Origin: an uncultured Eubacteriales bacterium
GTDB lineage: Bacteria; Bacillota; Clostridia; Christensenellales; Aristaeellaceae
Reading direction: 5' to 3'
Assembly: GCA_902790525.1 (NCBI GenBank)
Contig: CADASI010000002.1
Coordinates: 22,546 to 86,545 of the forward strand
Length of the DNA stretch: 64,000 bases
Shown here: positions 11,502 to 62,294 of the stretch, in pieces
Numbering within the stretch: the stretch's first letter is position 1
Layout of the letters: each line of letters opens with the position of its first letter
Program-made: the position numbers and the translations under genes
The notes under the pieces: generated by a model
What the model was told of the DNA's origin: nothing
The model's database searches: none
Seen by the model: the letters and a program-made list of their open reading frames with translations, nothing else

Positions 11502-12638
11502 TTATGCCGTTTCCGGCGGCGGTGCCCAGATGAACAACCAGTCGTATAAAGCGCCCAGGCGCTTGATTGTTCGGTGGGCGTTGAAGTTTCGGGCGTAAGC
11601 CCGCCAGCTCTGCCAGGATTGGTAAACATCCGCGATTGTCAGCTTACCGGCGTAATACATCTTTTGAAACCGCTTCAGCTTTCGGCGCATCCTCACGATG
11701 CTCCGCCGGTGTAGCTTCTTGACGACCTTCCCACTTGGGAGCAGATAGAACCTGACCTTCAGGAAGGTAAACCCGTGGGACAGTTTTATGATCTGCGTCT
11801 TTTTCTCGTTCAGCGTGATCTCCAGATCGTCACAGATGGCCCGTATGCCGTCCAGAATGGCCTGTAAGACGGCTTTGTCGCGGTGGATGACATATCCATC
11901 ATCCATATACCGGCCATAGCCACGGACGCCCCAAACGTCCTTGATGTAATGGTCAAGTCGGTTCGCCGACGCGAGGGCGAAAATCTGACTGATCTGACTG
12001 CCCAGGCCGACGCCCACGTCGCCGAAGGCGTCAATGAAATGCTCGGTGAGTCGGATGATCCTTTCGTCAGTGAACTCCCGGCGCAAAATGCCCTTTATCA
12101 GTCTGTGGGAAACCCGGTCAAAGAATTTGGAAAAGTCAAAGGTGAGGACATATCCCTCCTGACCGTGTTTCCGATAATGCTCATGAAGGTGCTGAGTCAG
12201 TCGATTCGCCGCGAATGTGTAACCCTTGTTCTCCATACTCGCGCCGTTGTCATAGACAAAGGTTCGCGTCAACAGGGGAACCAGGGCGAAATCACAAAGG
12301 CAACGCTGCACCACGCGCTCCTCTATGACAACGCTTCGGATGTGGCGTTGCTTGCCGCGCTCCATGATGTCAAATTCATAGAAGCCCTTGCTCTTAAACT
12401 TGCCCGCGTGGAGCTGCTTGTAGGTCTGAAGCACGTTCAGCGGTGCCTGAGTGATGTACTTTTGCACAGACGCTTTCCACGCGACATTGCGCCTGCACTT
12501 CTTATAGGCTTGATAGAGGTGGGTATAAGAAAATACCCAATCAAAGGAATCATGGCAAGCAAAGCGCCGGGCCTTTTTCTCGGCCCTGCGCTGTTTACGC
12601 CGTTGGAATCGTGCCTCCCGGCGCTCTTCGCTTGTCAT
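11502..12638 (-). CDS. Diversity-generating retroelement reverse transcriptase
   Basis: 378 residues from ATG 12638 (GAAGGTGA upstream). The RT fold motifs are clear: VLTFDFSKFFDRVSH in motif A, the active-site box GRYMDDGY near residue 243, and GLGSQISQ near residues 211-218 in motif 4. The SQ in that position, in place of the usual SP, is the mark of DGR-type RTs. The N-terminus is very basic. It copies the template RNA with adenine errors and, with Avd, drives mutagenic homing into the variable repeats. The template repeat is 240 bases upstream and avd just beyond, the canonical order. Confidence 0.95.
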   Translation of the reverse strand: MTSEERREARFQRRKQRRAEKKARRFACHDSFDWVFSYTHLYQAYKKCRRNVAWKASVQKYITQAPLNVLQTYKQLHAGKFKSKGFYEFDIMERGKQRHIRSVVIEERVVQRCLCDFALVPLLTRTFVYDNGASMENKGYTFAANRLTQHLHEHYRKHGQEGYVLTFDFSKFFDRVSHRLIKGILRREFTDERIIRLTEHFIDAFGDVGVGLGSQISQIFALASANRLDHYIKDVWGVRGYGRYMDDGYVIHRDKAVLQAILDGIRAICDDLEITLNEKKTQIIKLSHGFTFLKVRFYLLPSGKVVKKLHRRSIVRMRRKLKRFQKMYYAGKLTIADVYQSWQSWRAYARNFNAHRTIKRLGALYDWLFIWAPPPETA

Positions 12639-12879
12639 GTGTTCACCTTCGATCAAAGAACACTAATGCTCCGTCCGGCTGTCGGGTGGTTACATATAGC
12701 CGTATAAGGTCACTGAGCATGAAATAGCGGATTACCACCAACCGCTACCATGCAAGCAGCGTCCGCTCAGACCTATCAGAACATCTATTTACCCGCTTTT
12801 CCGCAGGAAGGTCATGCGCTCCTTCTCTCCACTTTGCGCTGATTTCGCCGTATAGGTTACTTTGTCGGACAAGAGAGGA
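12639..12879 (-). ncRNA. DGR spacer RNA region between template repeat and RT
   Basis: 240 bases without a credible gene, transcribed between the template repeat and the RT start. In studied DGRs this spacer is part of the template RNA and is needed for cDNA priming. A 77-codon frame across template and spacer is just the translation of the AAC-rich template and is not a gene. Confidence 0.6.
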
Positions 12880-12999
12880 GCCGAGGGCCACCCCGCCGCT
12901 GTTGTTCGCATTGTTGTTGTTGTTACTGCCGTCAGAATTGACATTGTTGAAATTGTTATTGTTGTTGGCAGAGCGCAACCACCACCAGGCAGCGGAGCC
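12880..12999 (-). repeat. DGR template repeat (TR)
   Basis: The 120-bp repeat is rich in AAC/AAT codons on the minus strand. Alignment to 13639-13758 and 49653-49763 shows that all differences (20 and 16) fall on template A positions (plus-strand T); every C, G and T of the template is conserved. Conserved ends encode WWWLRS and SGGVALG. It is noncoding itself and supplies the RNA for mutagenic retrohoming. Confidence 0.97.
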
Positions 13000-13015: not shown

Positions 13016-13423
13016 CTAAGAGGGTAAGTCCTTATACCGTTCTCTATCCTTCTTCAGCGTGCCCTTTACGAGACGGATCTCCTTTTCCACGATGTCCAGC
13101 CAGAATTTCATCTTGTCGCCTTCGATGCCAAAGAGCTCGTTGGCGACTTCGATTTGAGAAACCATGCTGTTCAGCTCCGCGTTCGCCCGCAACAGGTAAT
13201 CCCGCCGCATCTGAACTTCGTGCTGATTCACTGGATAGACGGAGTTGGCGCACTTCACATACTCATGCACCCGTGTAGCCATCTCCGCCAGCGGTTGGCT
13301 CACATAGAAGGTGTACCTCTTCGGAAAGCCGACGCATTTCTGGATCGTGTGGATTTGGAGTTGCCGCGCCGTGTGGATGAACTCCATTTCGGATTCACCA
13401 CGCTTGCTTTTGATGACAGACAT
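13016..13423 (-). CDS. avd: DGR accessory variability determinant (Avd, four-helix bundle)
   Basis: 135 residues beginning MSVIKSKR..SEMEF. The pattern K-S-K-R followed by MEFxHTA is, from memory, the start of the Avd-like four-helix-bundle proteins found with DGRs of gut bacteria. The rest is helical and basic, ending in a charged helix (EKEIRLVKGTLKKDRERYK). Avd forms a barrel-shaped pentamer that binds RT and template RNA. It lies between the target gene and the TR. An alternative start at MEFIHTARQ (13387) is possible. A run of ten G residues lies just upstream of the start. Confidence 0.9.
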   Translation of the reverse strand: MSVIKSKRGESEMEFIHTARQLQIHTIQKCVGFPKRYTFYVSQPLAEMATRVHEYVKCANSVYPVNQHEVQMRRDYLLRANAELNSMVSQIEVANELFGIEGDKMKFWLDIVEKEIRLVKGTLKKDRERYKDLPS

Positions 13424-13431
13424 CCGGCATA

Positions 13432-13441
13432 CCCCCCCCCC
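13432..13441 (-). promoter_or_regulatory. Ten-G homopolymer upstream of avd
   Basis: Ten consecutive C on the plus strand (G on the coding strand) end eight bases before the avd start and occupy the place where the ribosome binding site should be. An out-of-frame ATG lies between. Length changes here would alter initiation efficiency but not the avd frame. Confidence 0.5.
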
Positions 13442-13586
13442 GTATCGGTTCGCAGACGCTATTATATCACACGAATATTGAGGATAATAGCGTAAGGTCA
13501 AAAATCTCAAAAAATTTTCGCCGCTTACGCGGCGAATGGGCGGGCCTTCGGCCCGATTGGGCTGACGCTCGGCATATCTTTGTCCT

Positions 13587-13609
13587 TCCGGCCCCACAAG
13601 GGGGCCGGA
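13587..13609. other. Hairpin downstream of variable repeat 1
   Basis: A perfect 9-bp stem TCCGGCCCC / GGGGCCGGA with a 5-base loop lies 30 bases past the 3' end of VR1 and 18 bases past the stop of the target gene. Several DGRs need a hairpin or cruciform at this place for efficient homing. It could also be a terminator, but no U run follows. Confidence 0.55.
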
Positions 13610-13626: not shown

Positions 13627-16600
13627 TTATAAACAGAAGCCGAGGGCCACCCCGCCGCTGCTGGACGCACCGCTGCTGGTGTAACTGCCGCCAGAATAGA
13701 CATCGAGGAAATTGGCAAGGTTGGCGGCAGAGCGCAACCACCACCAGGCAGCGGAGCCGGAGCCGACCTTCTTCTTGATCCGACTGGTGTTATCCGGGAA
13801 AGCCGTGGAATAGCGCGGGCCCTGCGTCTCGTAATACTGAGACGTTCCATCAAACATCTCATGGCGAGACGGAATCCAGACATCTTCAGTCGTAGCCACA
13901 TCGTTTACAGCCTGCTCGGGCGACGCCTGATAGATGCGCGTGTACTTCGTGACTTCCTTAATCGCGTTGCGCACGTTGGCGGGAATCAAAGGCTTGATAG
14001 TTTCTTTCAGGTAAGACCGCATCTCGCACTTTTCCCAGCCGCCCAGCGAGCCGGTGCCCTCGGTGCCCGCCGAATAACTCGGATTCATACGATGGTCGGT
14101 TGCGAGGAGCTCCTTGCTGACGAGGGAATACTTGGCCGTTCCACCACCTGCTGCAAGTGCATCCACTTCCTGCCCGACGATCTGCATGTTCACGATGCCC
14201 TGAGCGCCCAGGTCAAGCGGCTTGTAATTGCCGGGCTTGTATGCGGCGGTGCCGTTTGCGATCTTTGTGAGAATCGTGTCCCAGCTATCCGTGATCTCCT
14301 CGTCAAACCAGGTTTGCGGAGCCTGGAATACCGCCGTATAGGTTGTGTTCGCCTGAATGCCCGACAGGGCGGGGCTCCACCCGGTAAAGGTGTAATCGTT
14401 ACCCCTGGACGAAACGGGCGTAGCGCCGCCATAGGTCGGCGTGGTGCCCTGCGGAACGTTGTTCTGGGTGTAGAGGGTCGTTCCACCGTCTGCGGCAGCC
14501 AGCACGAACGTCGCCGTATAGGTCGGGATGTACGTTGCCGTATAGGTAGCGTTGCCCGTGACCGTGGTGATTGCGGGTGTCCAGCCGGTCGCCGTCTGCC
14601 CGTCCTTCGTCGGCATCGCCTGTCCCCAGGAAGGCGTCGCACCGTAGGCCAGGGTATCAGTCCTCAGCGTGGTGCTCGCATCGTTCTTCCAGGTGATCGT
14701 GTACGTCCGCACCGTCCGGCTGTACGCCGCATAAACCGTCTTATCGACGGTCACATTGTCGGTGCATCCACTCGTCGCCGTCTGCGCGTCGGTACTCGTC
14801 GCCCAGCCCGCCGCCGTGTAGCTATACTGCGCCGTGCTCGTTCTGGACGGCACGGACGGGAGGGCCGATTGCGCCACGCCGTCAACATAGGTCACAGTGC
14901 CCACGGTGGAGCCGCCGTCCCACGTTTTCAGCGTCAAAACCGCAGAGGTATGATCCGCGACGACGCTCAAATAGGGGTAATTTGCCACCCTTTCGCCGAT
15001 AGCGGCGCTCTCCTGGCCGGACAGCGTGGCCGTGTGGATGGTGCCCGAAATCTGCGCCTTTTCCATGTTGTTGCCGAACTCGTCCAGGCCACGCATGGAA
15101 TCCAGCTTATCGAAGATGGCAAGGATCTCGGCGGCGTTTGTCGCTTCCCAGGCGACACCGATCAACCGCACGCGGGAGGCCGCCGGGATCGCGTTCAGAA
15201 TCGTCTTGCTGTTCACGGCGGCGCTGACATTCTCCAGCCAAAGCGTCGAAATGCTGGCATAGGAGGGGATCGTCAAAGCGGTAATCGCTTTCTGATTGCG
15301 AATGGTCAGGTTGGTCACGCTGGCGGGCAGACTCAGCGTTTTCAGAATGCCGCCGTTGGGCAGCTCCAGGCCGGTGATCGCCGTGCCGTCAAAGTAGACG
15401 TGCTCGATGTTGACGCAGCCGGAAATATCAACGCTCTTCATGTCGCCCGTGCCGAGGCCGGAACAGTTGCGGACATCCAGTGTCCGAAGGAGAACGTTGT
15501 TGCCCAGGTACAGCTCCTTCAGGTTGCCGTTGTCGTAGCTGACAGAATTGTCGCCGAGCTTGATGCTGGACAGCTTCGTCGCCTTGCTGAAGTCGGCGAA
15601 ACCGACCTTCAAGCCGGACAGATCGCCCACGGAGGCCAACTGCGACGCCGAGTAAATGTAAATCTCGGTATCGTTTACGCTATCCAGGGGGCAGATCAGC
15701 GTGTAAGCCGTGTTCCGCGTGCCCCTTGTCTGAAGCAGATAGGAGCCGTACTTCACCGAGGCATACACGTCGGCGTAGGGCGTGACGGTCACGTTGTCCT
15801 TGGCGTAACCGCGAAGCTGGATCACGTCGCTCAGGGCGTCACCGGCGTTATACTTGCTGTCCATATACCTGAACCGATTATACAGCCACCATTTGCGCTG
15901 TTCGGCCTTGCTACCCTGAAGCATGGCAAGGTAAGCGCCGGAGCCGTCATCAATCAGCGGGGCCAGATACTTGAACCAGGCGTCCTCGTTGAAGATCGCC
16001 TCGCCCCACTTGTCCTGGTGGGCTTCAAACGCGGCCTCCACCCGCGTATAGGACAGAACGCCCCTGCTCCGCAAAGTCTGATACATGGACTTGATCTCCG
16101 CGCCGAAAGCGTCCCGGAGATTGATCCACATGACGCTCTGCTGGCCGTTGAACACGTCCGCGCCGCTGGAAAGGGTATCGGTATCCTCCAGATTGTAGGA
16201 GAACACCAACGCGCCCTCATTGTTGATGCCCAGAGCGGTATCGAAGTCGTAAGGCAGCCAGCACCACTTGTCGCCGCCGATCTGCGACGGGAAAGCATTC
16301 TTCGCCCTGCTATCCACCATCAGGAACAACTCCGTGAAGAGGTAATAGAACATGGCGCTGTTCATTTCAAAGTGGTCAGGCGCTTCGGTCTTGAACTTTG
16401 CCAGGCGATAGGCGGCGTTGTCCACGGTATGCGTGGTGCCGTCCACGTCTGTGTAGCCCTCACTCAGCGCATCGCCGGTGGCGGCGCTCTGGTCGGTGGA
16501 CTTCAGCCAGGCGGCCAGCGCCGCGAGCTTCGTCGAATCCGTATAGGCCGGGTCGGTATCAGGGTAACGGGCCTCAAAGTCGTTCAGCCAACCGTCGCCG

Positions 16601-19470
16601 GTAAAATCGTCGCTCTTCCACAGCACCCGGTCACTGGTGTTGTTTTTGATTTCCCACGATTCATCTCCGGCGGTAAAGCCGAACACCTCCTCGGTGCCCT
16701 TGTCGTTGTTGAAATTGTACTTGCCCAGGAACGTCGTGTTCGTGCCGTCATTCCAGAAAATCACGCAGGGGAAACCGTCGATGCCCTGACGGACGGCGCT
16801 GTTTTCCTCCTGGGGAGGCGTCTGGTACGGGCAAGCATCATTGTACAGGATCGCCAGCTCCACGTTGTTTGCGCCCTCGGAGGATGCCACGTCAGCTTTC
16901 ATGCAGAAAGTCTTGGTGGGAATGGCTCCGGCTCTCAGCGCGTAGGTGCTGGCCTGCGTGCCGTTGTTCAGGATGAAGCCATCCTTATACTTCATCTTGT
17001 AGTTTTTCCGGGCGTAGTATTGGGAGGATGTGCCCTGTACGTCGATCTGTACGTTGTAGGCAGTAAAGCTCTTGGAAGGCGTCACCGGGTCAACATAAGT
17101 GACGGTACAGGTTTTCTTGTCGCCCTTGTACTGCGGCAACTCGGGGCAATCGCTGATAATCATATAGGGCAGGCTGCCCGGCAGATTGGCGATGATGATA
17201 TTGCCGTAGGCGTCATATATGTTGTTCCGATTGTACCGCTCGATCAGGTCATCCACGTTCTGAGAATCGGCGATCCAGTTTTCGAGAATCTGGTGCCGGG
17301 TCAGATCGTTGTCATACACGCGGATGCGGTAAATATCCATCGTGCAACTGTTGGAGCCGATGCTGATATTGACCGGCGTGGTCTGCTGGAAGTCGTCAGA
17401 GGCCGGGTACTGCACGACGCCGGACATGATACCGTTCACATAGACATAGAGCAGACGGTTCTCCGAGGTCTTTTCCGCGACAAAGGCAATGCGAACGTGC
17501 TCGCCTTCCTTGTACTGCATACTGATCTCCGACTGCTCCGAGGTCAGTGTAGCTTTCTGCGCCGTCATGTTCAGGCCGCGCCCCACGGACAGGCAGGACA
17601 GGATCACCGCGTCATAGTCCATGACATCCCGCGTGGCAAATTCAACCTCGATGGTCTTGCCGGTGGATCGGAAATCGGACGCGAAAATCTTGTAGGGGAT
17701 CTCCACTCTCGCGTCGCCTGCCACGCGCAGCACGGTAACGCCGTCCTCGTCGAGCTGCCAGCCGTCCGAGGTAAAGTTGAAATCGGTCATCGTGGCGTTG
17801 ATGTGGTTGTCGGCGTCCGTCCAGGTGTCGGGATGCTCTTCATTATTGCTCCGCCCGGCGGTGGACAGATGCAGAGACAGGTTTTGGGTTTCCGCTTCAA
17901 CGTGGATGTCCGATTCGCTCACCGTCACGGTGATGGTCTTGGACGCGCCGCCCGACGCGATTACCACGGTCAGGGTGCCGGTGGATTCGGCGCGATAGGC
18001 GAATACGTGCTCCGTGCGATCCACGGTCTGCGTCGAGGCCAGCGTGCCGTTCACGCGGATAGTGACCTCCGCCGTCAGCGAGGTCGGATCGTACACGGTG
18101 AACGGAATGTTCAGCGTCGCATACTGCACCGCCGTATTGCTGTTGAACGGGGACACGATGATAGGCGTTGTGCTCAGCGGGTCGATGCAGATGAGCTCGA
18201 AATACAGCTCATTGGAACGCACGGTCTGGCCGTTGATCTCCGCCTCAAAATAGACGCGGAAGGTATGCGCCCCGTGGCTCTGCTGGGGGATCGTGAAAGT
18301 CTGCTGACGGCCCGAAACGCTGGTGTTCTGCGTGCCGATCTGCGTGCCGTCCAGGATAAAGTGAACGGTCTTGCTCACGCTGCCCACGGGCGTATAGGGA
18401 AAGCTGATCGCGCCGGTATAGGGCGAAGAGGCGTCAAAGGTGCTGGACAGGGAAAGCTCCACCACAGTCACCGTCATGCGAATGGTGCGGTTGTTTCCGT
18501 ACAGGTCGGTGACGGTCAGCGCGACGGTGTTTGCGCCGGTTGCCAGGTAGGGCGCAACGTTCACCGTGACCGCGCCTTGTGTGACCTCCAGCGTGGCCTT
18601 GGTGACGCCGGAAACCATAACGCGCAGGGAGCCGTTGCCGGTGGGAATGTCGTTTTCCAGGCTCGACCAGGAAAAGGAAACGGGGCAAGTATCATCCTGG
18701 GCAATAGTCTTGGAAACCCAGCCAGACGTATTGCTCATGGTAACTACGGCGTTGTTTCCGCTGTCGCCGCCACCGCTGCCGCCTCCGCCGCCACCTTTGA
18801 GCACCCGGAACAGCTCGGTATCGTCATGGACAAAGACGTTATAGTCACCATCTTCATAGCAACCGTTGACGTAAGTGTCCATCTGCAAGGCGATAGCCTG
18901 CTGATTGCGTTCAACCGATTCAAGGCCGACGGCAACCTCAGCGACCTCGTTCTCCGCGTTGCCAGCTCGTTCAATCGCCTGTGTAGCCGCGGTGTTGGCT
19001 CCCTGGGCAACCGCCACGCAGTTTTCCAGGAGCTCGTTATAGCCAGCGGCCATGTCGCGCATTTCCTGCGCATAGTCCTCCATCGTCCCGATACCCGCCT
19101 CAATCTGATCGAGCAGGCTGGGCGAGGGTTCAATGGACTCCGACGCAACGCTGGTATATGCGCCTTCCACGACCTTGTACGTCACCTTTACGGTAACGAT
19201 CCGCTTTGCGCCGTTGGTGCCATAGACGCCGAATTTGATCTTGCCAGGATCGGCCATCGCTTCATGCGGAACGATGGTCTTTCCGTTGACGATCTGGGCG
19301 ATATACACCTCGTCATCGACGCCCCAGAAAAGCGCAGTCCTGCCGAAACCGTCCCAGGCGTCGTCAAACTGGAACAGGATTTGCACCGTCTCGACAGACT
19401 TGCTTGCCAGTAACGGAGAGGCCAGCAGCTCGATATTCTCGCCTGTGACCTTCGCACTAATCGTAATCAA
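13627..19470 (-). CDS. Giant tail receptor-binding protein, DGR target 1
   Basis: 1947 residues. Order of parts: a BppU-like baseplate domain (1-110) close to the product of the next upstream gene; a coiled linker; a Gly/Ser hinge near 225-240; beta-sandwich repeats (240-560); a LamG/concanavalin-like domain (about 590-710); a CotH-kinase-like domain (about 800-1200, with VQGTSS, then WLPYDFDTALG near 1075); leucine-rich repeats (about 1290-1450); InlB-type B repeats (about 1490-1720, TYTITWKND..); and a C-terminal DUF6273 C-type-lectin-like domain (1725-1947). Its last 40 residues hold the variable repeat, WWWLRS to GGVALGFCL. It sits at the end of the tail operon and probably sets host adsorption. 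The long opposite-strand frame is a shadow. Confidence 0.93.
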   Translation of the reverse strand: MITISAKVTGENIELLASPLLASKSVETVQILFQFDDAWDGFGRTALFWGVDDEVYIAQIVNGKTIVPHEAMADPGKIKFGVYGTNGAKRIVTVKVTYKVVEGAYTSVASESIEPSPSLLDQIEAGIGTMEDYAQEMRDMAAGYNELLENCVAVAQGANTAATQAIERAGNAENEVAEVAVGLESVERNQQAIALQMDTYVNGCYEDGDYNVFVHDDTELFRVLKGGGGGGSGGGDSGNNAVVTMSNTSGWVSKTIAQDDTCPVSFSWSSLENDIPTGNGSLRVMVSGVTKATLEVTQGAVTVNVAPYLATGANTVALTVTDLYGNNRTIRMTVTVVELSLSSTFDASSPYTGAISFPYTPVGSVSKTVHFILDGTQIGTQNTSVSGRQQTFTIPQQSHGAHTFRVYFEAEINGQTVRSNELYFELICIDPLSTTPIIVSPFNSNTAVQYATLNIPFTVYDPTSLTAEVTIRVNGTLASTQTVDRTEHVFAYRAESTGTLTVVIASGGASKTITVTVSESDIHVEAETQNLSLHLSTAGRSNNEEHPDTWTDADNHINATMTDFNFTSDGWQLDEDGVTVLRVAGDARVEIPYKIFASDFRSTGKTIEVEFATRDVMDYDAVILSCLSVGRGLNMTAQKATLTSEQSEISMQYKEGEHVRIAFVAEKTSENRLLYVYVNGIMSGVVQYPASDDFQQTTPVNISIGSNSCTMDIYRIRVYDNDLTRHQILENWIADSQNVDDLIERYNRNNIYDAYGNIIIANLPGSLPYMIISDCPELPQYKGDKKTCTVTYVDPVTPSKSFTAYNVQIDVQGTSSQYYARKNYKMKYKDGFILNNGTQASTYALRAGAIPTKTFCMKADVASSEGANNVELAILYNDACPYQTPPQEENSAVRQGIDGFPCVIFWNDGTNTTFLGKYNFNNDKGTEEVFGFTAGDESWEIKNNTSDRVLWKSDDFTGDGWLNDFEARYPDTDPAYTDSTKLAALAAWLKSTDQSAATGDALSEGYTDVDGTTHTVDNAAYRLAKFKTEAPDHFEMNSAMFYYLFTELFLMVDSRAKNAFPSQIGGDKWCWLPYDFDTALGINNEGALVFSYNLEDTDTLSSGADVFNGQQSVMWINLRDAFGAEIKSMYQTLRSRGVLSYTRVEAAFEAHQDKWGEAIFNEDAWFKYLAPLIDDGSGAYLAMLQGSKAEQRKWWLYNRFRYMDSKYNAGDALSDVIQLRGYAKDNVTVTPYADVYASVKYGSYLLQTRGTRNTAYTLICPLDSVNDTEIYIYSASQLASVGDLSGLKVGFADFSKATKLSSIKLGDNSVSYDNGNLKELYLGNNVLLRTLDVRNCSGLGTGDMKSVDISGCVNIEHVYFDGTAITGLELPNGGILKTLSLPASVTNLTIRNQKAITALTIPSYASISTLWLENVSAAVNSKTILNAIPAASRVRLIGVAWEATNAAEILAIFDKLDSMRGLDEFGNNMEKAQISGTIHTATLSGQESAAIGERVANYPYLSVVADHTSAVLTLKTWDGGSTVGTVTYVDGVAQSALPSVPSRTSTAQYSYTAAGWATSTDAQTATSGCTDNVTVDKTVYAAYSRTVRTYTITWKNDASTTLRTDTLAYGATPSWGQAMPTKDGQTATGWTPAITTVTGNATYTATYIPTYTATFVLAAADGGTTLYTQNNVPQGTTPTYGGATPVSSRGNDYTFTGWSPALSGIQANTTYTAVFQAPQTWFDEEITDSWDTILTKIANGTAAYKPGNYKPLDLGAQGIVNMQIVGQEVDALAAGGGTAKYSLVSKELLATDHRMNPSYSAGTEGTGSLGGWEKCEMRSYLKETIKPLIPANVRNAIKEVTKYTRIYQASPEQAVNDVATTEDVWIPSRHEMFDGTSQYYETQGPRYSTAFPDNTSRIKKKVGSGSAAWWWLRSAANLANFLDVYSGGSYTSSGASSSGGVALGFCL
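13639..13758 (-). repeat. DGR variable repeat 1 (VR1)
   Basis: A 120-bp copy of the template at the 3' end of the receptor gene. It has 20 substitutions, all at template-A positions. The 3' end AGCGGCGGGGTGGCCCTCGG is unchanged and is the expected initiation-of-mutagenic-homing segment. Variable codons are mostly AAC or AAT in the template and now read Ala, Leu, Asp, Tyr, Gly, Thr and Ser. Confidence 0.97.
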
Positions 19471-33904: not shown

Positions 33905-33910
33905 CGTCCA

Positions 33911-39755: not shown

Positions 39756-40160
39756 TTAACAGTCCCGCGAACGCTCCAGATAGCGCGTGCATGTCATGCG
39801 CACGCTATCGGCGGTGCAATCGCCACCGATGCAGCAGGCCACTTGATGCCAGGTCAGGCCACTCACAAAACGGTATGTAAATATCTGCCGGGTCAGCGCG
39901 TCGCCAATATCGGCGATATACCTCTCAAGGCGATTGCGCTCATACAGACATTGCATGTGTTTGGCCTCAATGATGCTTTTCAGGTCGGCGATTTCAGCCG
40001 CGTAACGCCCCGTCCGATCCGACGGAATGCCGCTCCCGGGCATACCTGTCAGCACTTGCGCCCCCGGCTGCATCTTTGCCTCCAGCTCCGCCAGTCGGCG
40101 CTTATCCATCTCGATTTCACGATTCAAGTAATACAGTTGCGATAATTCCCGAATAGTCAT
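39756..40160 (-). CDS. Phage late transcription regulator (sigma-70 r4-like, ArpU/DUF1492 type)
   Basis: 134 residues. The N-terminal helix (MTIRELSQLYYLNREIEMD) and the C-terminal sigma-like HTH (RQIFTYRFVSGLTWHQVA..) fit the ArpU/RinA-like proteins that switch on late genes in Gram-positive phages. It sits just upstream of the packaging genes, as in those phages. Confidence 0.75.
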   Translation of the reverse strand: MTIRELSQLYYLNREIEMDKRRLAELEAKMQPGAQVLTGMPGSGIPSDRTGRYAAEIADLKSIIEAKHMQCLYERNRLERYIADIGDALTRQIFTYRFVSGLTWHQVACCIGGDCTADSVRMTCTRYLERSRDC

Positions 40161-40266
40161 CCTCTGCTCCTTCCCGCGTCAGGTCGCCGGAAACGGCCAT
40201 ACAGCCGCCCCCGCGCCCGCTGTGATAAATTCCCCGCCGTAACGCGCGGGGACGGCGAGACGGGCT

Positions 40267-41715
40267 TCACCGGCCCGCCCGCGCCGCTTTCGCGCTTTCC
40301 AGACGAACACGCAGGGAGGCGAGGAGGCTTTCCTGCACATTCTCGTTTGACGCCAGGGCTTTCATAACATCCTCGTCCCGTCCACCCTGCACAATTAGGT
40401 GATGCACCACGACGGGGTGACGCTGCCCCTGCCGGTATAGTCGCCGGTTTGCCTGAATGTACTGCTCAAGGCTCCATATCAGACCAAACCAAATCACGTG
40501 ATGCCCGCCCGCCTGAAGGTTCAGCCCATACGAACAGCTTTGCGGTTGGGCCAATAGAAGATCAACCTCGCCCGCGTTCCAGGCGTCCGCGTCGTCCGCG
40601 CCCTTGTACACGCGCACGCGCAAATGAGCCGGGTCGTAAGTGCTGCCCTTAAAGTTACCGATTCGCGCCCCGTGTTCCAACAGCGTCTTTTCCAGCCGGG
40701 ACAAATCATGCTGGAAGTTGTAATATACGATTGCGTGTTGCCCGTTCAGGGCCTCCACAAGCTCCAGAAACGCCTCCAGCTTGCATGTATGGATCGACGT
40801 AAACATGCCATCCTCGCCGTACACAGCCCCGTTGCAAAGCTGTAACAGCTTGCCGGTGAGGGTCGCCTGCGTGCTGGCCGTGATCGTCGTGTCCGCGTCG
40901 ATTTTCAGCAGCATCTCGCGCTCCAGACGGTCATAGGCGCGTTTTGCCGCCGGGTCAAGCACCACGGGAATATCATCATACACCAGCTCCGGCATGGTCA
41001 GATAATCCTCGGCTTTCATCGAAATGCAAATGTCGCTTATCAAGCGACGGATCTCCTCCGGGGCTCCTTCCTTCGGCGCATAGCTGTAAATCATATCCCG
41101 GCTCCGCTTATCCGGGACGAAATACAGATCGCGGTAAACGCTGATCGTCCGTCCGAGACGCTGCCCGCCATCCAGCAGATAAACCTGCGCCCACAGATCG
41201 GTCAATCCATGCGGGGACGGCGTGCCGGTCAGCTCCACCAGGCGACGGATGTGAGGGCGAACAGACTTCAGCGCCCGAAACCGTCGCGCCCGGTGATTCT
41301 TGAAGGAGCTGGATTCATCGAGCACCACCATGTCAAAGGGCCATTTGTTGCGGTAGTAGTCCACAAGCCATTGCACGTTTTCGCGGTTGATGACGTAAAT
41401 ATCCGCCGGTTTATGCAAAGCGGTGATGCGCTGGGCCGCCGAACCGAGCACCGTGGAGAACGTCAGCGGCGCTAATTCGATCCACAAACTCGCTTCTTTC
41501 TGCCATGTGGCCTCCGCAACCTTCTTCGGCGCAACGATTAAAACACGCCCCACAGACCAACGATGATAGCGCAGCTCCAGAATCGCCGACAGAGTGATTG
41601 CCGTTTTCCCCATGCCGGGGTCAAGGAAAATCCCGACGCTGGGCAACTCCAGAATCTTGTCCACGCAATACTCCTGGTAGCTGTGTAGCTTTAGAGACTT
41701 CGCTCCCTGCACCAT
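40267..41715 (-). CDS. SNF2-family DEAD/DEAH helicase
   Basis: 482 residues. The helicase motifs are I GPGMGKT-like (DPGMGKTAI near residue 32), II DESS (VVLDESSSF near 130), III TGTP (near 165), then GLNLQAGG, and VI QANRRLYRQGQ near 440. SNF2-type helicases of this size are common in phage replication modules, often beside VRR-NUC nucleases as here. Its ATG overlaps the nuclease stop by 25 bases. Confidence 0.9.
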   Translation of the reverse strand: MVQGAKSLKLHSYQEYCVDKILELPSVGIFLDPGMGKTAITLSAILELRYHRWSVGRVLIVAPKKVAEATWQKEASLWIELAPLTFSTVLGSAAQRITALHKPADIYVINRENVQWLVDYYRNKWPFDMVVLDESSSFKNHRARRFRALKSVRPHIRRLVELTGTPSPHGLTDLWAQVYLLDGGQRLGRTISVYRDLYFVPDKRSRDMIYSYAPKEGAPEEIRRLISDICISMKAEDYLTMPELVYDDIPVVLDPAAKRAYDRLEREMLLKIDADTTITASTQATLTGKLLQLCNGAVYGEDGMFTSIHTCKLEAFLELVEALNGQHAIVYYNFQHDLSRLEKTLLEHGARIGNFKGSTYDPAHLRVRVYKGADDADAWNAGEVDLLLAQPQSCSYGLNLQAGGHHVIWFGLIWSLEQYIQANRRLYRQGQRHPVVVHHLIVQGGRDEDVMKALASNENVQESLLASLRVRLESAKAARAGR

Positions 41716-48517: not shown

Positions 48518-49171
48518 CTATTCGATGTCGTCAAAGATCACGGGCACGACATCCTTGAACGCCGGGAGCATTATGTCGGTCAGCTCGCGCATTTGCGGGT
48601 GGGCGTCCGGCGCGTGGCGCAGCTTGAAGAAATGCCTCCATTCCCGCATGTTCATGGTCGTCGAAACGGCGGTTTTCGTGCTGTGATTCAGCACAGACCG
48701 GGCGATTTGAGGGGTTGCGCCCAGCGCGATCATGCGCATGTAATGGCGCTCCGCGTCCTCGCAAGCCTGCATCCACTCAATGAGAATCGCGTCGATCTGC
48801 TCCCTGGGCAGCTTTGAAACAATCGCGTCGTGTTCAATGCCGCCCGACAGGTCGATGTATGCGATCTCGCCGCCGAGCCGATCCCCGGCGTAGTTGCAGA
48901 ACCTCGTGCTCTCCTGCGTGTAGCTTGCGATCCGGTGCCGCACCTCCTCGTGGGAAACGCCACGGTCACAGATAATGGTCACGGACAGAATAGCGTGCTC
49001 CAGAACGGACTCATGCCCACGCTGAATCAAGCGCCGCACAAAGTCAGCATCTTCACCTTTGGGCTCGGATAAATAGGCGGTTCGGCCCGCGCGGGCGATT
49101 CTCGCCAGAATCGCAAGGCCGTCGGGCGTCTTATCGCCCAACCAGGAAAACGACGGGCAAACAATCTTCAC
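48518..49171 (-). CDS. thyX: Flavin-dependent thymidylate synthase ThyX
   Basis: 217 residues from GTG 49171 (GAGGAGG upstream). The ThyX signature RHRxxSxTxxSxRF is at 78-91, with the canonical N and Y changed to T and F, and it also has a preceding VRRLIQRGHESVLEHA. The enzyme makes dTMP from dUMP with FAD and NADPH and supports phage DNA synthesis. Confidence 0.9.
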   Translation of the reverse strand: MKIVCPSFSWLGDKTPDGLAILARIARAGRTAYLSEPKGEDADFVRRLIQRGHESVLEHAILSVTIICDRGVSHEEVRHRIASYTQESTRFCNYAGDRLGGEIAYIDLSGGIEHDAIVSKLPREQIDAILIEWMQACEDAERHYMRMIALGATPQIARSVLNHSTKTAVSTTMNMREWRHFFKLRHAPDAHPQMRELTDIMLPAFKDVVPVIFDDIE

Positions 49172-49560
49172 GGTATAGCCTCCTCTGCATCGTTGATGCG
49201 GTCGAATGGTTCATCGAAATCAAGGGTCAAGCCGATTTTCTGGAACACCTCGTCGATGATTTCAGCCGAGGCCAGGGTGTCCAGCACAAACTCGTCAGCC
49301 CGCTTCAGAACGCGCTTGACGCGAGCGTGACCGAATCCCAGCTCCTCTTTCATGGCAAGGCAGAACGCGGCGTAACAGGTCTTTACGGCGGGCTCAGTGG
49401 CCGCTGCAAAGCCAGCTTTGAAACCCTTGTTGTATTCTTCCGTCAGGTCTTTCGGGGTGATCCCGTTCTGTATCAGCGCTTTCATTCGCTGATCCTTTGT
49501 CTGGGGCATCCAGCGCGGGGTTTTCTTCGCTGCCGCCCTTCTCTGTGCCCGGTTGCTCAT
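49168..49560 (-). CDS. Phage protein with N-terminal basic region
   Basis: 130 residues from ATG 49560 with AAGGAG upstream. The first 25 residues are basic (MSNRAQRRAAAKK), the remainder helical and acidic. It overlaps the ThyX start by four bases. No family is known, although phages often encode such a short basic-start protein beside ThyX. Confidence 0.5.
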   Translation of the reverse strand: MSNRAQRRAAAKKTPRWMPQTKDQRMKALIQNGITPKDLTEEYNKGFKAGFAAATEPAVKTCYAAFCLAMKEELGFGHARVKRVLKRADEFVLDTLASAEIIDEVFQKIGLTLDFDEPFDRINDAEEAIP

Positions 49561-49640
49561 ATGCCCAGCTCCTTCTTGTGTGTCCTGAATCGGTCTTGAA
49601 GGGGCCCACGATGGAGCCCCGATTCGCAACGATGATTGGA

Positions 49641-50270
49641 TTACAATTTGAAGCCGAGGGCCACCCCGCCGCTGGCGTACGCACTGGTGCCGCTGATACT
49701 GCCGTCAGAATCGACATAGTTGAAACGGTAATTGCCGTTGGCAGAGCGCAACCACCACCAGGCCGTCACACCGTCGCGCTCCTTGACGCGGGAACGCTCA
49801 GTCCTGAAGATGTCCAGGGGGTGATCTTCGGGTTCGCGTTCATTCATCCACGACCAGTCTTTGCCGAAAACCTGCGTATAGGACAGGCAGAACAGCTTAT
49901 CCTCGCACTCGATGCGCTCTCCGTTGATGATCTGCACGATCTTGGTCGGCGCAATGACGGCCTGAAGCTCATCCGGGAACAGGGGCAGGATCTCCTCGTG
50001 GATATACTTGCGCATGTCTGTGGTCGCCCAGCCGCCTTTTGCGCTGCCGTTCTCGTTCATGCAATGCTTGACGGCGCAGAGGTCATGGAACACAAAGAAG
50101 ATTTCGCCTGTCGCATCGCGGGCGACATCCAGCAGCAGCTCCTTGTTGTTCTTCAGGATGACGGGGATCATGTCCCCGCTGTGTAGCCAGTCCGCGTTTC
50201 CGCTCCGAATGGCGTTCTTGATCTCAGACCAGCTTGAGACTTTCTGGGTCTTGGTGATGATGTCCAACAT
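49641..50270 (-). CDS. Stand-alone DUF6273 protein, DGR target 2
   Basis: 209 residues. The N-terminal half (ITKTQKVSSWSEIKNAI..) is unlike the tail receptor, but the second half has the DUF6273 lectin-like layout (GGWATTDMRKYI, D-W..FRTERSRV, WWWLRS) and ends in a variable repeat, GGVALGFKL. It has no signal peptide or baseplate domain and sits in the DNA-replication module between ThyX and the polymerase. It may display a diversified ligand-binding site inside the cell, or be exported with virion parts. The role is unknown. Confidence 0.9.
   Translation of the reverse strand: MLDIITKTQKVSSWSEIKNAIRSGNADWLHSGDMIPVILKNNKELLLDVARDATGEIFFVFHDLCAVKHCMNENGSAKGGWATTDMRKYIHEEILPLFPDELQAVIAPTKIVQIINGERIECEDKLFCLSYTQVFGKDWSWMNEREPEDHPLDIFRTERSRVKERDGVTAWWWLRSANGNYRFNYVDSDGSISGTSAYASGGVALGFKL
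49653..49763 (-). repeat. DGR variable repeat 2 (VR2)
   Basis: 111 bp matching the TR at 12880-12990, with 16 substitutions, all at template A; identity stops sharply at the upstream end. The 3' end AGCGGCGGGGTGGCCCTCGG is identical to TR and VR1. It is 36 kb from the template. Confidence 0.95.
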
Positions 50271-50289: not shown

Positions 50290-52377
50290 TCAGTCTTTCT
50301 TGAAGAATTTCCCGACCCAACCATCAGCGCCCAGGGGGAGCCCCGGTGCCCACGGGATCGGGCGCGTCATGATGTCGGTGACTTGCTTGAGCATCGCGTC
50401 GGGTGTGTCGAATGGTTCAATGTCAATCACGCATTCGTCGTGAACATGGAACACAACAGGGAATCCGGCGGCCTCAAGGTGCTCTATCGCCTGTGACAGA
50501 CAATCGCGGGCGATGGCTTGAACGCAGTTTTCGACCAACTTACCTCCGTAGGTTTCTGTGAGCTGCCATTTGCCCGTTTTCTGGTTGACGCCCATATACT
50601 CGATGGACTTCTCGCCGAAACGGTTTTCACCGATAGACGGCTTGACATAGTACAGCTTTCGCCCTGACGGGAGCCGAATCGACATAACCGTGACATTCTG
50701 TGCCTTGTCGTATTCGCGCGTCAGCGTCACCGTCGCCCCGATGTTGAAATAGTCGCTGAAGCTGCCATACGGCCTGCGCATAGCAACTTCGTTTGCGCGT
50801 GCCCGTTGCGGATCGTACATCTGAACCTCGACATTCAGGGAGCCGCCGCGTTCGATGACACGCAATGCAGCGTCATTCATGCGATTCCACAAACCGACGA
50901 TCCGGGAATTTGCGTTGCGCCAGCGTTTCACGATGTCGGGCAATTCCTCCTCCGGGATGCCCATATCAAGAGCTCCCATGTTGATGAGCGCCCCGGCCCC
51001 GCCCTGATAGCCCAGGGCCAGCTCCGCAACCTTGCCTTTTTGCCGGAGCGCATATTCGGGATTGCCCTTCTTGATGCGCTCCAGGGGCACGCCGAACATC
51101 TGCGAGGCAGACGCTTCGTAAATCTTGCCGTGGGTTCTGAACACGTCCAGCCGCCAGTGTTCGCCCGCAAACCACGATATAACGCGGGCTTCAATCGCGC
51201 TGAAATCGGCGTCAATCAGTACGTGGCCGTCAGGGGCGATAAATGCTGTGCGGATCAGTTGACTCAAGGTGTCGGGGACGGAACCGTAGATCATGCGGAG
51301 GGCGTCAAGGTTTCTGCTCTTCACAAATTCCCGCGCCTCCTCCAGTGGCTCTGTGTAGGTTCTTGGGAGGTTCTGCACCTGCACCAGCCTCCCGGCCCAG
51401 CGCCCGGTTCTGTTCGCGCCGTAGAATTGCAGGAGCCCTCCCACGCGCCCGTCAGGGCAAACCGTCGCTTCGATTGCGTCATACTTCGATGTCGAAGTTT
51501 TGTTCAAATCGAGCCGGATTTCCAGCGCTCGGCGCACTTCGTCGGAAATGTCCTCGCGTTTCGCCAGCTTTGCCACGGTGTCTTTCCGCATATCCGGGAG
51601 CTCTTCGCCTATACGATCTTCCAGCCAACCCTTGAGCTGTACATTGCTGTTCGGGTTTTCCAGGCCGGTCAACTGTTCGGCTTCGCGCCGCAACTCCGTC
51701 ATGACGGTTTCACCCAGCTCCAGGGCACCGTGTACGAAATCCATATCGACGGCAACACCGCGACAGTTGATGCGGAGATCCGTTTCCCATTCCTTTTGAA
51801 GATCGCCGGGAACGGGAAATGCGGATAGACGACGCTCAATCTCCATTTCCGTCACAACGTCCTGAACGCAATATTCCTTGAACAGACTCCACTTGTCGGG
51901 ATCGTGCCGGGGGAAATTGCGCGTGCGCCCGCCGTTGACCTTCGTCGGCTTGCAGGGGACGCAGAAATAGCGGATCAGCGCCTTGCCCGTGGCGAGCTTT
52001 TGCTTATCTTCGGGCAGGCCCAGGGCCTTGCCTGTGGCGTCCAGACCGGCGGTATAGCCACAATACAGGCCGTGGAACATGGTGCAACGCCATTGATCGG
52101 CGGGGAGCTGAACGCCCAGCATCTTCGACAGACAAGCGTGCTCAAACGGGGCGTTATAGGCGTGCTTGATGTAATCAGCATCCAGCAGGGCGAACACCAG
52201 CCACGGGGGAAGGGTTTCACCGCTCGCCATATCAACGATTTCCACCGACGCCCCATCCAGCGAATACGCGAACAGCAGTATTTCAAAATCGTCGCTGGAA
52301 ACGTATTTGCGCACGCCTGCGTCACTGATCGGAACGCTGGAAAACGTTTCCAGGTCGATACTGAGATGGTGTGCCAT
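50290..52377 (-). CDS. PolA-family DNA polymerase
   Basis: 695 residues from ATG 52377 (GGAGGTAAG upstream). The exonuclease-like part starts with HHLSIDLETF, and the polymerase motifs are A, DADFSAIEARVISWFAG near residue 390, and C, HVHDECVIDIEP near 630. It is typical of phage replication modules. Because its exonuclease metal ligands are not all checked, proofreading is uncertain. Confidence 0.9.
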   Translation of the reverse strand: MAHHLSIDLETFSSVPISDAGVRKYVSSDDFEILLFAYSLDGASVEIVDMASGETLPPWLVFALLDADYIKHAYNAPFEHACLSKMLGVQLPADQWRCTMFHGLYCGYTAGLDATGKALGLPEDKQKLATGKALIRYFCVPCKPTKVNGGRTRNFPRHDPDKWSLFKEYCVQDVVTEMEIERRLSAFPVPGDLQKEWETDLRINCRGVAVDMDFVHGALELGETVMTELRREAEQLTGLENPNSNVQLKGWLEDRIGEELPDMRKDTVAKLAKREDISDEVRRALEIRLDLNKTSTSKYDAIEATVCPDGRVGGLLQFYGANRTGRWAGRLVQVQNLPRTYTEPLEEAREFVKSRNLDALRMIYGSVPDTLSQLIRTAFIAPDGHVLIDADFSAIEARVISWFAGEHWRLDVFRTHGKIYEASASQMFGVPLERIKKGNPEYALRQKGKVAELALGYQGGAGALINMGALDMGIPEEELPDIVKRWRNANSRIVGLWNRMNDAALRVIERGGSLNVEVQMYDPQRARANEVAMRRPYGSFSDYFNIGATVTLTREYDKAQNVTVMSIRLPSGRKLYYVKPSIGENRFGEKSIEYMGVNQKTGKWQLTETYGGKLVENCVQAIARDCLSQAIEHLEAAGFPVVFHVHDECVIDIEPFDTPDAMLKQVTDIMTRPIPWAPGLPLGADGWVGKFFKKD

Positions 52378-52394
52378 ACTTACCTCCCTAAATC

Positions 52395-52443
52395 GTGAAA
52401 AAAGGCCGGTTTCATTCGTTAGGAGCTTCACATGTGACCGGCC
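52395..52443 (-). terminator. Terminator before the polymerase gene
   Basis: On the minus strand a GGCCGGT / ACCGGCC stem with a 26-base loop is followed by TTTTTT. It lies in the 181-base gap 52378-52558, which holds no gene but has hairpins (ACCGC/GCGGT) and a TATAAT-like box. It may limit transcription into the polymerase. Confidence 0.5.
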
Positions 52444-56239: not shown

Positions 56240-56268
56240 ATAATAGCACGGAAAATTGTACTTGTCAA
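56240..56268 (-). promoter_or_regulatory. Strong early promoter (minus strand)
   Basis: TTGACA (56268-56263), exactly 17 bases, TATTAT (56245-56240). The spacer holds AGTACAATTTT. It drives the Cro-like gene and early operon. The -35/-10 set is nearly the same as that of the promoter at 9556-9584. Confidence 0.75.
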
Positions 56269-56819: not shown

Positions 56820-58367
56820 ATGGCTGTAAGGGTGAACACCATCGCCGACGAAGGCGCATTTGCAGTAGTTTACGCGCGTTATTCCAGCCATGCCCAGGGT
56901 GAACAATCCATCGAGGGCCAGTTGGAGAAGGCGCACGCCTACGCTGCCGCAAAAGGCTATAAGATTATTCACGAATACATTGACCGGGCACAGTCGGGCA
57001 AGAGCGACAACCGCGTCGAGTTTCAGAAAATGCTACACGACACGGGCAAGAAGAAATTTCAGGTCATTATTCTCTGGAAGGTTGACCGCTTTGGCCGGAA
57101 TCGTGAAGAGATCGCCATAAACAAATACAAGTGCAGAAAGAACGGCGTCCGAGTGGAATATGTCGCCGAACACATCCCCGACACCCCGGAGGGGGTGATC
57201 CTGGAAAGCGTGCTGGAAGGATTCGCGGAATATTACAGCCTCCAGCTCGCCCAGAACGTCAAGCGCGGTCTGAGAGTCAGCGCGGAGAAGTGCCAATGCA
57301 CGGGAGGGAACCGGCCACTCGGCTACACGACGGGGAAAGACAAGCGGTTTGAGATTGATCCGAAAACCGCGCCGACGGTCAAGCTGATTTTTGACATGTA
57401 TTCCAACGGCAGCTCTATGGCCGAGGTGATCCGTGAGCTGAACAGTCGCGGTCTGCGCACTCTGCGCGGGAAACCCTTCACGAAAAACAGCCTGGACACG
57501 ATCTTGAAGAATGAAAAGTATACCGGCGTGTACATCTACGAGGATATACGGGTTGAGGGCGGGATGCCCCGGATCATCGAGCCTGAAGTGTTTGCGAAGG
57601 TGCAAGAAATGCTGAAGATCAATAAACGCGCCCCGGCGCACACGTGGAACCGAGCTGACTACATCCTCACCGATAAACTGTTTTGCGGTCATTGCGGGTC
57701 GCAAATGGTCGGAGTAAGCGGGATCAGCCACACAGGGGCAAAGCACAGCTATTATATCTGCGCCAGGAAAAAGCGGGAAAGGACATGCGATAAAAAGGCG
57801 ATTCGGCAAGCCTGGATCGAGAGAATAGTCCTGCGCGAAGTTGAGAAAATAATAAACGACGATGATCTGTTGAAGATCATCGCCGCAAAGACTTACGCCT
57901 ATTATAAGGCGGAGCAGGAAGATGACGAGCAGCTCCAGCACCTTCAGGAACGGCGCAAAGACGTTCAGAAAGCCATAGACAACCTTGTCAAAGCCATCGA
58001 AGGGGGAATGTTCAACGCCGCGATAAAGGCCCGTATGGACGCCCTGGAAGCCCAGAAAAGCGAATTGGACGATGCCCTCGCAGGCGCGGAGCTTTCAAAG
58101 ACCCTTGAGCTGACAGAAAAGCAGATTCTATATTTCCTCATGCAATTCAGAAACATGGACTTGACGAAAATCGAATCGCAGAAACGGGTTATAGCAACCT
58201 TCGTCAATTCGGTCTTTGTTTACGACGATGGACGCATAACCATCACGTTCAATTACAGCAGCGACACAAACACCGTGACGCTCCACGAGCTCCCGAACAC
58301 CGACACAGCAGGGGTTTCAGGGTTCGGATGCTGCGCGGAGTGGCCCACCAACGACGGCAGGACTTGA
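56820..58367 (+). CDS. Large serine integrase
   Basis: 515 residues. The N-terminal resolvase domain has the catalytic Ser22 in YARYSSHAQ and DRFGRNREE, followed by a recombinase domain (about 165-290), a zinc ribbon with LFCGHCG..YYICARKK..TC, and a coiled-coil (375-440). It integrates and excises the phage at the att cores. The last 14 codons lie beyond the attR core and are host DNA. Downstream 50 bases hold a terminator. Confidence 0.95.
   Translation: MAVRVNTIADEGAFAVVYARYSSHAQGEQSIEGQLEKAHAYAAAKGYKIIHEYIDRAQSGKSDNRVEFQKMLHDTGKKKFQVIILWKVDRFGRNREEIAINKYKCRKNGVRVEYVAEHIPDTPEGVILESVLEGFAEYYSLQLAQNVKRGLRVSAEKCQCTGGNRPLGYTTGKDKRFEIDPKTAPTVKLIFDMYSNGSSMAEVIRELNSRGLRTLRGKPFTKNSLDTILKNEKYTGVYIYEDIRVEGGMPRIIEPEVFAKVQEMLKINKRAPAHTWNRADYILTDKLFCGHCGSQMVGVSGISHTGAKHSYYICARKKRERTCDKKAIRQAWIERIVLREVEKIINDDDLLKIIAAKTYAYYKAEQEDDEQLQHLQERRKDVQKAIDNLVKAIEGGMFNAAIKARMDALEAQKSELDDALAGAELSKTLELTEKQILYFLMQFRNMDLTKIESQKRVIATFVNSVFVYDDGRITITFNYSSDTNTVTLHELPNTDTAGVSGFGCCAEWPTNDGRT
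58318..58330. other. Candidate attR core (13-bp direct repeat)
   Basis: CAGGGTTCGGATG, identical to 4002-4014. It falls inside the 3' end of the integrase frame. Beyond it the sequence should be host DNA. Confidence 0.65.
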
Positions 58368-58391: not shown

Positions 58392-58536
58392 TATGTCAAT
58401 TTACGGTTCTCTTCTCTGCCCTACCAAACATTCCGAATGCTGTTGAAAACAGGCTTCAATTTTGCTATACTAAACATAACATACTATATCTGTATCAAGC
58501 AAAACAGTTTAGCCTAATAGGAATTTGGGAGGACAT

Positions 58537-60031
<1,495 letters not shown>

Positions 60032-60042
<11 letters not shown>

Positions 60043-61192: not shown

Positions 61193-61198
61193 GCTGCA

Positions 61199-61210
61199 AA
61201 ATTATCGTTT
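61199..61210 (-). repeat. Recombination site 2 (inverted)
   Basis: Inverted copy six bases after the hsdS stop codon. Flanks resemble those of site 3 (GC..GCTTAGAGG) rather than sites 1 and 4. Confidence 0.85.
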
Positions 61211-61303
61211 GTACGACTACGACCACTACCTCCTACCAGTGGCGGGAGGCAAATAGACAGGAACGCCACTGCCCGTCGTTCTCCCAGAAAAGGAGAATTG
61301 ACG

Positions 61304-62284: not shown

Positions 62285-62294
62285 GGAGACCACA

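Follow-up and report, generated by a model that had tools for sequence, protein, structure and literature searches.

Why would a phage direct a hypermutation system at a small protein encoded among its replication genes? The question is raised by a stretch of 64,000 nucleotides, hereafter the window, from an uncultured Eubacteriales bacterium (G000:C2:22546-86545 in a 3.75-Mb assembly of 199 contigs, 94.66% complete). Most of the window is a prophage that carries tail genes, portal, terminase and replication genes on the minus strand, together with a diversity-generating retroelement (DGR). Two proteins are targets of this DGR. One is large, belongs to the tail region and bears the first variable repeat (VR1); the other, a DUF6273 protein bearing the second (VR2), is small and soluble and is encoded in the early replication operon. 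The DUF6273 gene, of 209 amino acids (aa; 49641..50270, minus strand), is a real second target, far from the template repeat (TR).

VR2 occupies 49652..49763 (minus strand), at the 3′ end of the gene. Over a core of 111 bp it differs from the TR (12879..12990, minus strand) at 16 positions, every one at a template adenine (16/16, with 33 adenines in the TR; p 1.4e-10), and the final 22 bases are identical, forming a 3′ end like that of the initiation of mutagenic homing (IMH) site. In the frame of VR2, 17 of the TR adenines fall at codon position 1, 16 at position 2 and none at position 3. TR and VR2 lie 36.8 kb apart on the same strand, and a TR search of the whole assembly returned three sites only, TR, VR1 and VR2, so a third VR in the host was rejected within an assembly of the completeness given above. 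The protein matches DUF6273 (PF19789) at 65.1 bits (E 9.5e-18), the curated cut-off being 23.5, and a hydropathy scan found no hydrophobic segment or export signal in it. Most of this had been claimed in the initial annotation, and the adenine-restricted mismatches, the shared homing end, the remoteness from the template, the place in the replication module and the lack of a signal or membrane part were all borne out. The closest relatives found have about 50% identity or less, and very near records may be absent from the sets searched; by sequence, no solved homologue was found at E 0.01.

The recurrence of such genes was examined in viral and genome contigs, in phage records and in the family to which the window belongs, using as queries the window protein, single homologues or an alignment of five stand-alone proteins. 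Fetched contigs were passed to a detector of adenine-biased TR/VR pairs, which, when run three times on locally shuffled sequence of each of six genomes, gave 0 matches in the 18 runs; coverage extended to 22 of the 28 viral records of a second scan and to parts of 14 of 15 genomes, with stretches L152 and L153 outside the detector scan. A stand-alone DUF6273 gene (189-331 aa) with an adenine-biased VR2 is present at 18 loci: the window, Dulem virus 34, Roseburia phage Shimadzu, Acutalibacter phage Fontainebleau, four IMG/VR contigs (G312, G314, G318, G322) and ten genomes (G340, G341, G342, G344 and G346-G351, of which G350 is Lacrimispora defluvii). We take the ten genomes and the hosts of Shimadzu and Fontainebleau (12/18 loci) to be Clostridia. 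The initial annotation had called the gene an orphan, wrongly, because it belongs to this conserved family. The 18 loci are not independent trials, because several are related to each other.

At 15 of these loci TR and VR2 share a contig, 14-63 kb apart and on the same strand in 14, and a VR near the TR was measured in 14 of the 15, at 0.6-1.1 kb; the repeats are on separate contigs in G340, G344 and G351. VR1 was flagged by the detector in 15/18 loci. Of the 308 genomes from the window's family, only that of the window gave a close match, and four others matched weakly. More distant stand-alone DUF6273 proteins also carry VR2 in four of seven further phage records (nd4, nd12, Lelie and MT835491), the other three having a single VR near the reverse transcriptase (RT). 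Taranis and Pioen likewise have a single VR near the RT, and in Aster the detector found none. No VR2 was detected in DUF6273 open reading frames (ORFs) of up to 331 aa in G001, G002, G003, G311, G313, G315, G316, G320, G325, G328, G333, G334, G335, G336, G339, G343, G345, G347C17 and a second copy of G341, nor in an 82-aa DUF6273 piece in G331. Eleven VR2-less contigs (G311, G313, G315, G316, G320, G325, G328, G333-G336) gave no match to the DGR RT family, and neither did the genome of G343. G001-G003 have a retron-type RT, and G339 carries both RT and TR on one contig, with three in-frame stops in the RT match.

Is VR2 still being diversified? The initial annotation proposed that an invariant VR2 beside a varying VR1 would mark a frozen relic, and in relatives VR2 was found not to be frozen. 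Three contigs with different IMG metagenome numbers allow a comparison: the gene body of G325 is identical to that of L042 and to that of L045 (506/506 positions each), and VR2 differs. L042 departs from G325 at 16/28 A sites and 5/74 other sites, and L045, over a short VR2 overlap, at 3/9 and 0/35, the A sites being approximate because G350's TR was used in place of the contigs' own. Both L042 and L045 stop inside VR2, as assemblies may at hypervariable sites. In the pairs Dulem 34/G318, Dulem 34/G346, G318/G346 and Shimadzu/G350, 48-78% of A sites differ as against 15-22% of the body; the corresponding values are 55% and 18% for G350/L042, and 54% and 11% for G313/G340. Across 15 loci (G312, G314 and G348 left out), 217/433 TR-adenine sites are mutated in VR2 and 214/433 in VR1.

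The sequence following VR2 bears on the same question. In BPP-1, an inverted repeat after the VR is required for efficient homing (PMC3240598; papers are cited here by PMC number, and what is attributed to them refers to their accessible text). A GC-rich inverted repeat lies 3′ of VR2 in the window (49601..49620, minus strand; score 15 versus 9 for the TR flank), and at 18/18 loci the highest-scoring hairpin within 70 nt 3′ of VR2 outscores the TR flank. This hairpin is reached by no more than 5% of 200 base shuffles at 16/18 loci, the exceptions being the window (a share of 0.09) and Dulem 34 (0.065); the same level is attained at 16/17 loci for VR1 and at 0/18 for the TR. The hairpin 3′ of VR1 in the window (13587..13609, minus strand) is reached by 0/200 shuffles.

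Codon statistics were computed for codons derived from AAY (Y, pyrimidine) against two nulls, in which letters were shuffled over A sites or within codon position, with 400 shuffles each. Among 193 such codons in VR2 (17 loci, without G348, which has a gap in VR2), Tyr occurs 50 times, with 16.5 and 31.0 expected under the two nulls, and Gly 26 times, with 11.6 and 14.2 expected, both counts being reached by 0/400 shuffles under each null; Asp occurs 8 times, with 22.0 and 19.0 expected. VR1 follows the same trend (15 loci, without G312, G314 and G348), with 33 Tyr where 11.3 and 23.2 are expected, and Gly enriched too. A mutational preference tied to codon context may be an alternative source of the Tyr/Gly excess, and the loci are partly related. 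Taken together, variation beside identical bodies and the Tyr/Gly enrichment suggest that VR2 in the relatives is a live, selected putative binding surface, not a relic. Within the same phage, VR1 and VR2 variants are near-independent (178/433 shared, 164 expected, a value reached by 110/2000 shuffles), in agreement with the report on nd4 and nd12 in PMC10743442. A ligand common to VR1 and VR2 was considered and set aside, the sharing being only weak.

Where, then, would such a protein act? At 17/18 loci, G322 being the exception, the target has a gene for DNA replication, recombination or methylation no more than two genes away. The neighbour is a DNA polymerase in the window, G312, G314, G340 and Fontainebleau; Erf or single-stranded DNA-binding protein (SSB) in Shimadzu, G350 and G351; a methyltransferase in Dulem 34, G318, G342, G344 and G348; a replication initiator in G341 and G346; RNase H in G347; and a resolvase with a helicase in G349, some of these names being the annotation of one cluster member extended to the rest by clustering. 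Maximum hydropathy over 19 aa is 0.70-1.48 in 18/18 stand-alone proteins and 2.3-3.4 in seven membrane-anchored neighbours, the usual membrane threshold being about 1.6. The domain is fused at its N-terminal side to DUF4406 in G342 (E 8.6e-23) and to DUF3310 in nd12 (E 2.5e-16), and proteins of both families are regarded as cytosolic. L038, G347C17 and G347C13 have a CxxC zinc-ribbon-like N-terminus, recognised by eye in the sequence and giving at best weak Pfam matches, and the G348 stand-alone protein has an N-terminal segment resembling a small neighbour protein of G342. The DUF3310 part of the nd12 protein is also described in PMC10743442. The initial annotation had listed an anti-defence, inhibitor or receptor-like function and a virion-associated decoy as candidates; where the gene lies and what it is fused to speak more for a role inside the cell than for a decoy on the virion, without naming the ligand. 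As a separate observation, a cell-wall hydrolase- or transglycosylase-like gene occurs upstream, at a distance of no more than six genes from the stand-alone one, at 13/27 loci (e.g. L125:17939-18805; single-linkage cluster), and the seven hydrolase-like neighbours inspected all have a membrane segment. These neighbours are treated as a lead only, there being no baseline for such phages.

In the window itself, DNA polymerase A (50290..52431, minus strand) lies directly upstream of the DUF6273 gene, across a 19-nt gap that contains AGGAGG. An ORF of 153 aa with no family match (49168..49629, minus strand) starts 11 nt after the target and overlaps ThyX (48518..49171, minus strand; E 8.5e-42) by 4 nt. 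The earlier placement between ThyX and DNA polymerase is thus correct as to the polymerase, but ThyX is two genes downstream, with the 153-aa ORF between. A promoter-like site with 11/12 consensus bases (56240..56268, minus strand) lies ahead of this leftward early block and is the best on the target's strand within 47.0-56.9 kb; it is suggestive only, because six sites were found in the region and 4.7 were expected. On that strand the same interval yielded no terminator-like site, in a scan near chance level and likewise suggestive only.

A tree was built from the protein body without the VR, for 54 of 57 proteins (three with too short a body were left out, as were G002, G315, G333 and G335 as identical copies). 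It sets 30 stand-alone proteins apart from the tail-region DUF6273 domains with a support of 71, and 23 of the 30 form one clade apart from the tail domains with a support of 91, in an alignment to a profile of stand-alone proteins that may favour such a split. The G328 and G334 proteins, which lack VR2, fall on the tail side. Stand-alone homologues with 48% and 41% identity to the window protein, encoded in IMG/VR at L001:6995-10660 and L003:6985-10636, group with it at a support of 98; they adjoin a retron II-A-like RT (PADLOC E 1.1e-42 and 4.2e-50), L001 has a second, weakly DUF6273-like ORF (E 0.0051), and no TR/VR pair was detected on either contig.

Modelling of the structure, a check proposed by the initial annotation, gave a confident AlphaFold2 (AF2) model of the window protein (predicted local distance difference test, pLDDT, 94.7; predicted template modelling score, pTM, 0.89), in which VR2 codes for strands and loops of the last fifth, where the variable residues lie. 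In Foldseek searches the model matches DUF6273 proteins of phages and, among solved structures, one entry at E < 0.001, the immunoglobulin A (IgA) peptidase of Thomasclavelia ramosa (9qa6; E 5.2e-5); as it is the sole solved match at that level, a DUF6273-like domain may therefore occur in that bacterial peptidase. Classical C-type lectins are weak matches, with E >= 0.62 among the matches listed. A C-type lectin fold of DUF6273 domains has been reported from DALI comparisons (PMC10743442).

The initial annotation regarded a DGR acting in trans on such a protein as unusual, which overstates the case: phages whose second target is non-structural or unassigned are described in PMC8008677, PMC10743442 and PMC11792537, and two-target phage DGRs of this kind are already in print for Quimbyvirus, Shimadzu, nd4/nd12 and Lelie. 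The window has one TR, a tail-region VR1 and a distant VR2 outside the structural module, an arrangement of the Shimadzu and Quimbyvirus kind, and its target, between polA and ThyX, is without the tail-gene surroundings of an Mtd-like protein. Shimadzu (LR596903) has an annotated tail fibre with VR1 and, in its early module, a 209-aa product of orf43 whose VR2 differs at template adenines in 15/15 cases and which lies on the same side of the tree as the window protein; however, identity to the latter is 28%, and the neighbours are Erf and SSB, not polA and ThyX. Quimbyvirus likewise has a second target, with a proposed role in phage-host conflicts, but its RT is in overlapping frames, its hosts are given as Bacteroides, and it is set beside DUF6273 by description only (PMC8008677).

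The second targets of nd4 and nd12 are DUF6273 proteins of 234 and 294 aa (PMC10743442), and the detector places their VR2 11.7 and 14.1 kb from the TR, the nd4 gene standing directly before DNA polymerase III alpha; by contrast, the first target there is a tentaclin, and the authors propose an Mtd-like role in adsorption (PMC10743442). The Faecalibacterium phages Lelie and CP11 have large and small DUF6273 targets, with variation at both VRs in CP11, compared here by description (PMC11792537, which cites Shimadzu). The small target of Lelie (40024-40671) is 15.9 kb from its TR, but is a more distant protein whose DUF6273 match is below the Pfam cut-off. Fontainebleau (ON453893), an induced prophage of Acutalibacter muris (PMC10197239), has, immediately downstream of DNA polymerase I, a gene of 189 aa whose VR2 mismatches fall at template adenines in 15/15 cases, and VR1 (16/19 at A) in a gene at 33554-34489; it differs in a shorter TR match (88 bp) and in a DUF6273 match below the Pfam cut-off. 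The accessible main text of PMC10197239 contains no occurrence of DGR, retroelement, reverse transcriptase or hypervariable, and the metagenome survey of PMC8144416 would, by its own account, miss remote targets. A statement that small DUF6273 targets form an early-module lineage was not found in the literature searched, most subscription papers lying outside it.

If the established mechanism of DGRs applies, TR RNA would be copied by the RT and Avd together, with errors at adenines, and the cDNA would be written into VR2, guided by the common 3′ end and the hairpin after VR2. The DUF6273 protein would be made early with DNA polymerase, stay in the cytoplasm and bind a partner protein that varies from host to host or from one rival phage to another, a component of host defence being the likeliest candidate, and through hypermutation some members of the phage population would carry a fitting variant. 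That the protein acts early and inside the cell, binding a changing factor of the host or of a rival phage, is quite possible, if short of probable; a host defence component is held most likely because the gene stands among replication and DNA-modification genes, and because a self- or constant partner would not reward hypermutation. Rather more tentative is the wider proposal that Clostridia phages possess an old, separate lineage of DGR-diversified antibody-like proteins acting inside the cell, one retroelement evolving both the tail tip and an early cytoplasmic binder that would neutralise or sense a changing host-defence or rival-phage protein. Several results weigh against the first of these views. 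The whole stand-alone versus tail split is supported at 71 only, and the G349 stand-alone protein is placed among tail domains; VR1 was not flagged by the detector in G312, G314 and G340 (adenine mismatches make up 5/7 in G312 and 8/11 in G340); and stand-alone genes without a detected VR2 occur in G339, the second copy of G341, G347C17 and G001-G003. VR2 of G313/G340 differs in excess at non-A sites too (29/84), and the VR2 hairpin is weak for the window locus alone, because of its shuffle share. PADLOC gave no defence-family match for the window protein, and such an identity was rejected on that ground. Lastly, an early-operon position is compatible with virion packaging or release at lysis.

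It is these last outcomes that two of the rival explanations take up. PMC10743442 proposes in its discussion, for the second targets of nd4 and nd12, that the small protein binds host receptors as an accessory of the virion or tail; the TR and DUF6273 domain held in common with the tail-region target, and the Tyr/Gly enrichment of both repeats, speak for this, but it is made unlikely by the genes nearby at 17/18 loci, the fusions to DUF4406 and DUF3310, a lineage separate from most tail domains and the near-independence of VR1 and VR2 variants. Alternatively, the protein might serve phage competition, either set free at lysis or retained in the lysogen, where it would bind rival phages or receptor fragments, in superinfection exclusion or as a decoy. 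That 12/18 loci are in bacterial genome assemblies or, for Fontainebleau, an induced prophage is in keeping with such a role, as are the hydrolase- or transglycosylase-like genes upstream at 13/27 loci; yet no export signal is seen, the operon looks lytic-early, and hydrolases of this sort may be widespread in such modules (a 3D-domain protein is encoded there in Taranis), which leaves this, too, an unlikely account. Modulation of the phage's own replication proteins, such as DNA polymerase, SSB or methylases, would fit a gene that adjoins polA, Erf/SSB or methyltransferase genes, but is improbable, as a self-partner does not call for hypermutation and the neighbours change between lineages while VR2 stays. 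Finally, VR2 could be the frozen relic of a past retrohoming event: the variation between contigs comes from relatives of the window's phage, and some relatives, e.g. G339, have no detected VR2. Against this stand the variation between contigs with identical bodies, the hairpins kept, the Tyr enrichment and the presence at 18 loci, and it is a very improbable explanation. Should the early intracellular binder indeed have a host defence protein as its ligand, a virus would here be using targeted hypermutation within the cell; a recurrent early-operon second target, with signs of live diversification and selection, in any case provides a handle on what non-tail targets bind, and Fontainebleau and Shimadzu are named phages in which the question is testable.

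The DGR itself occupies 11.5-13.75 kb of the window and comprises RT, TR, an Avd-like ORF and VR1. The RT (11502..12656, minus strand) has the motifs GLGSQISQ and YMDD, the former presumably the DGR form, and a retron or defence RT was ruled out by this DGR-type motif. Between TR and VR1 lies an ORF of 193 aa (13016..13597, minus strand), a probable Avd accessory protein: its match to the Avd family (PHROG 3206) is weak at E 1.2e-7, the top match being a PHROG of unknown function (E 1.2e-15). VR1 (13638..13749, minus strand), with 20/20 mismatches to the TR at template adenines, ends the first target, a protein of 1947 aa (13627..19470, minus strand) in which a CotH-like kinase domain (E 1.1e-5) is joined to a C-terminal DUF6273 domain (E 6.2e-12). 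Phage proteins that join CotH domains to hypervariable C-type lectin domains are mentioned as unstudied in PMC8008677.

Elsewhere in the window, a search for prophage attachment sites produced a best direct repeat of 13 nt, which is unconvincing. A serine recombinase is found at the prophage (56820-58367), adjoined by type I restriction-modification genes (58525-63415; hsdM, with hsdS at 59975-61192), among which inverted repeats of 93 nt with 86% identity, at 61118-61210 and 62744-62836, may mark an invertible specificity gene. Within the minus-strand block of the prophage, 38268-38897 weakly resembles an ADP-ribosyltransferase family, at a Pfam E of 0.0027 that falls short of the curated cut-off.
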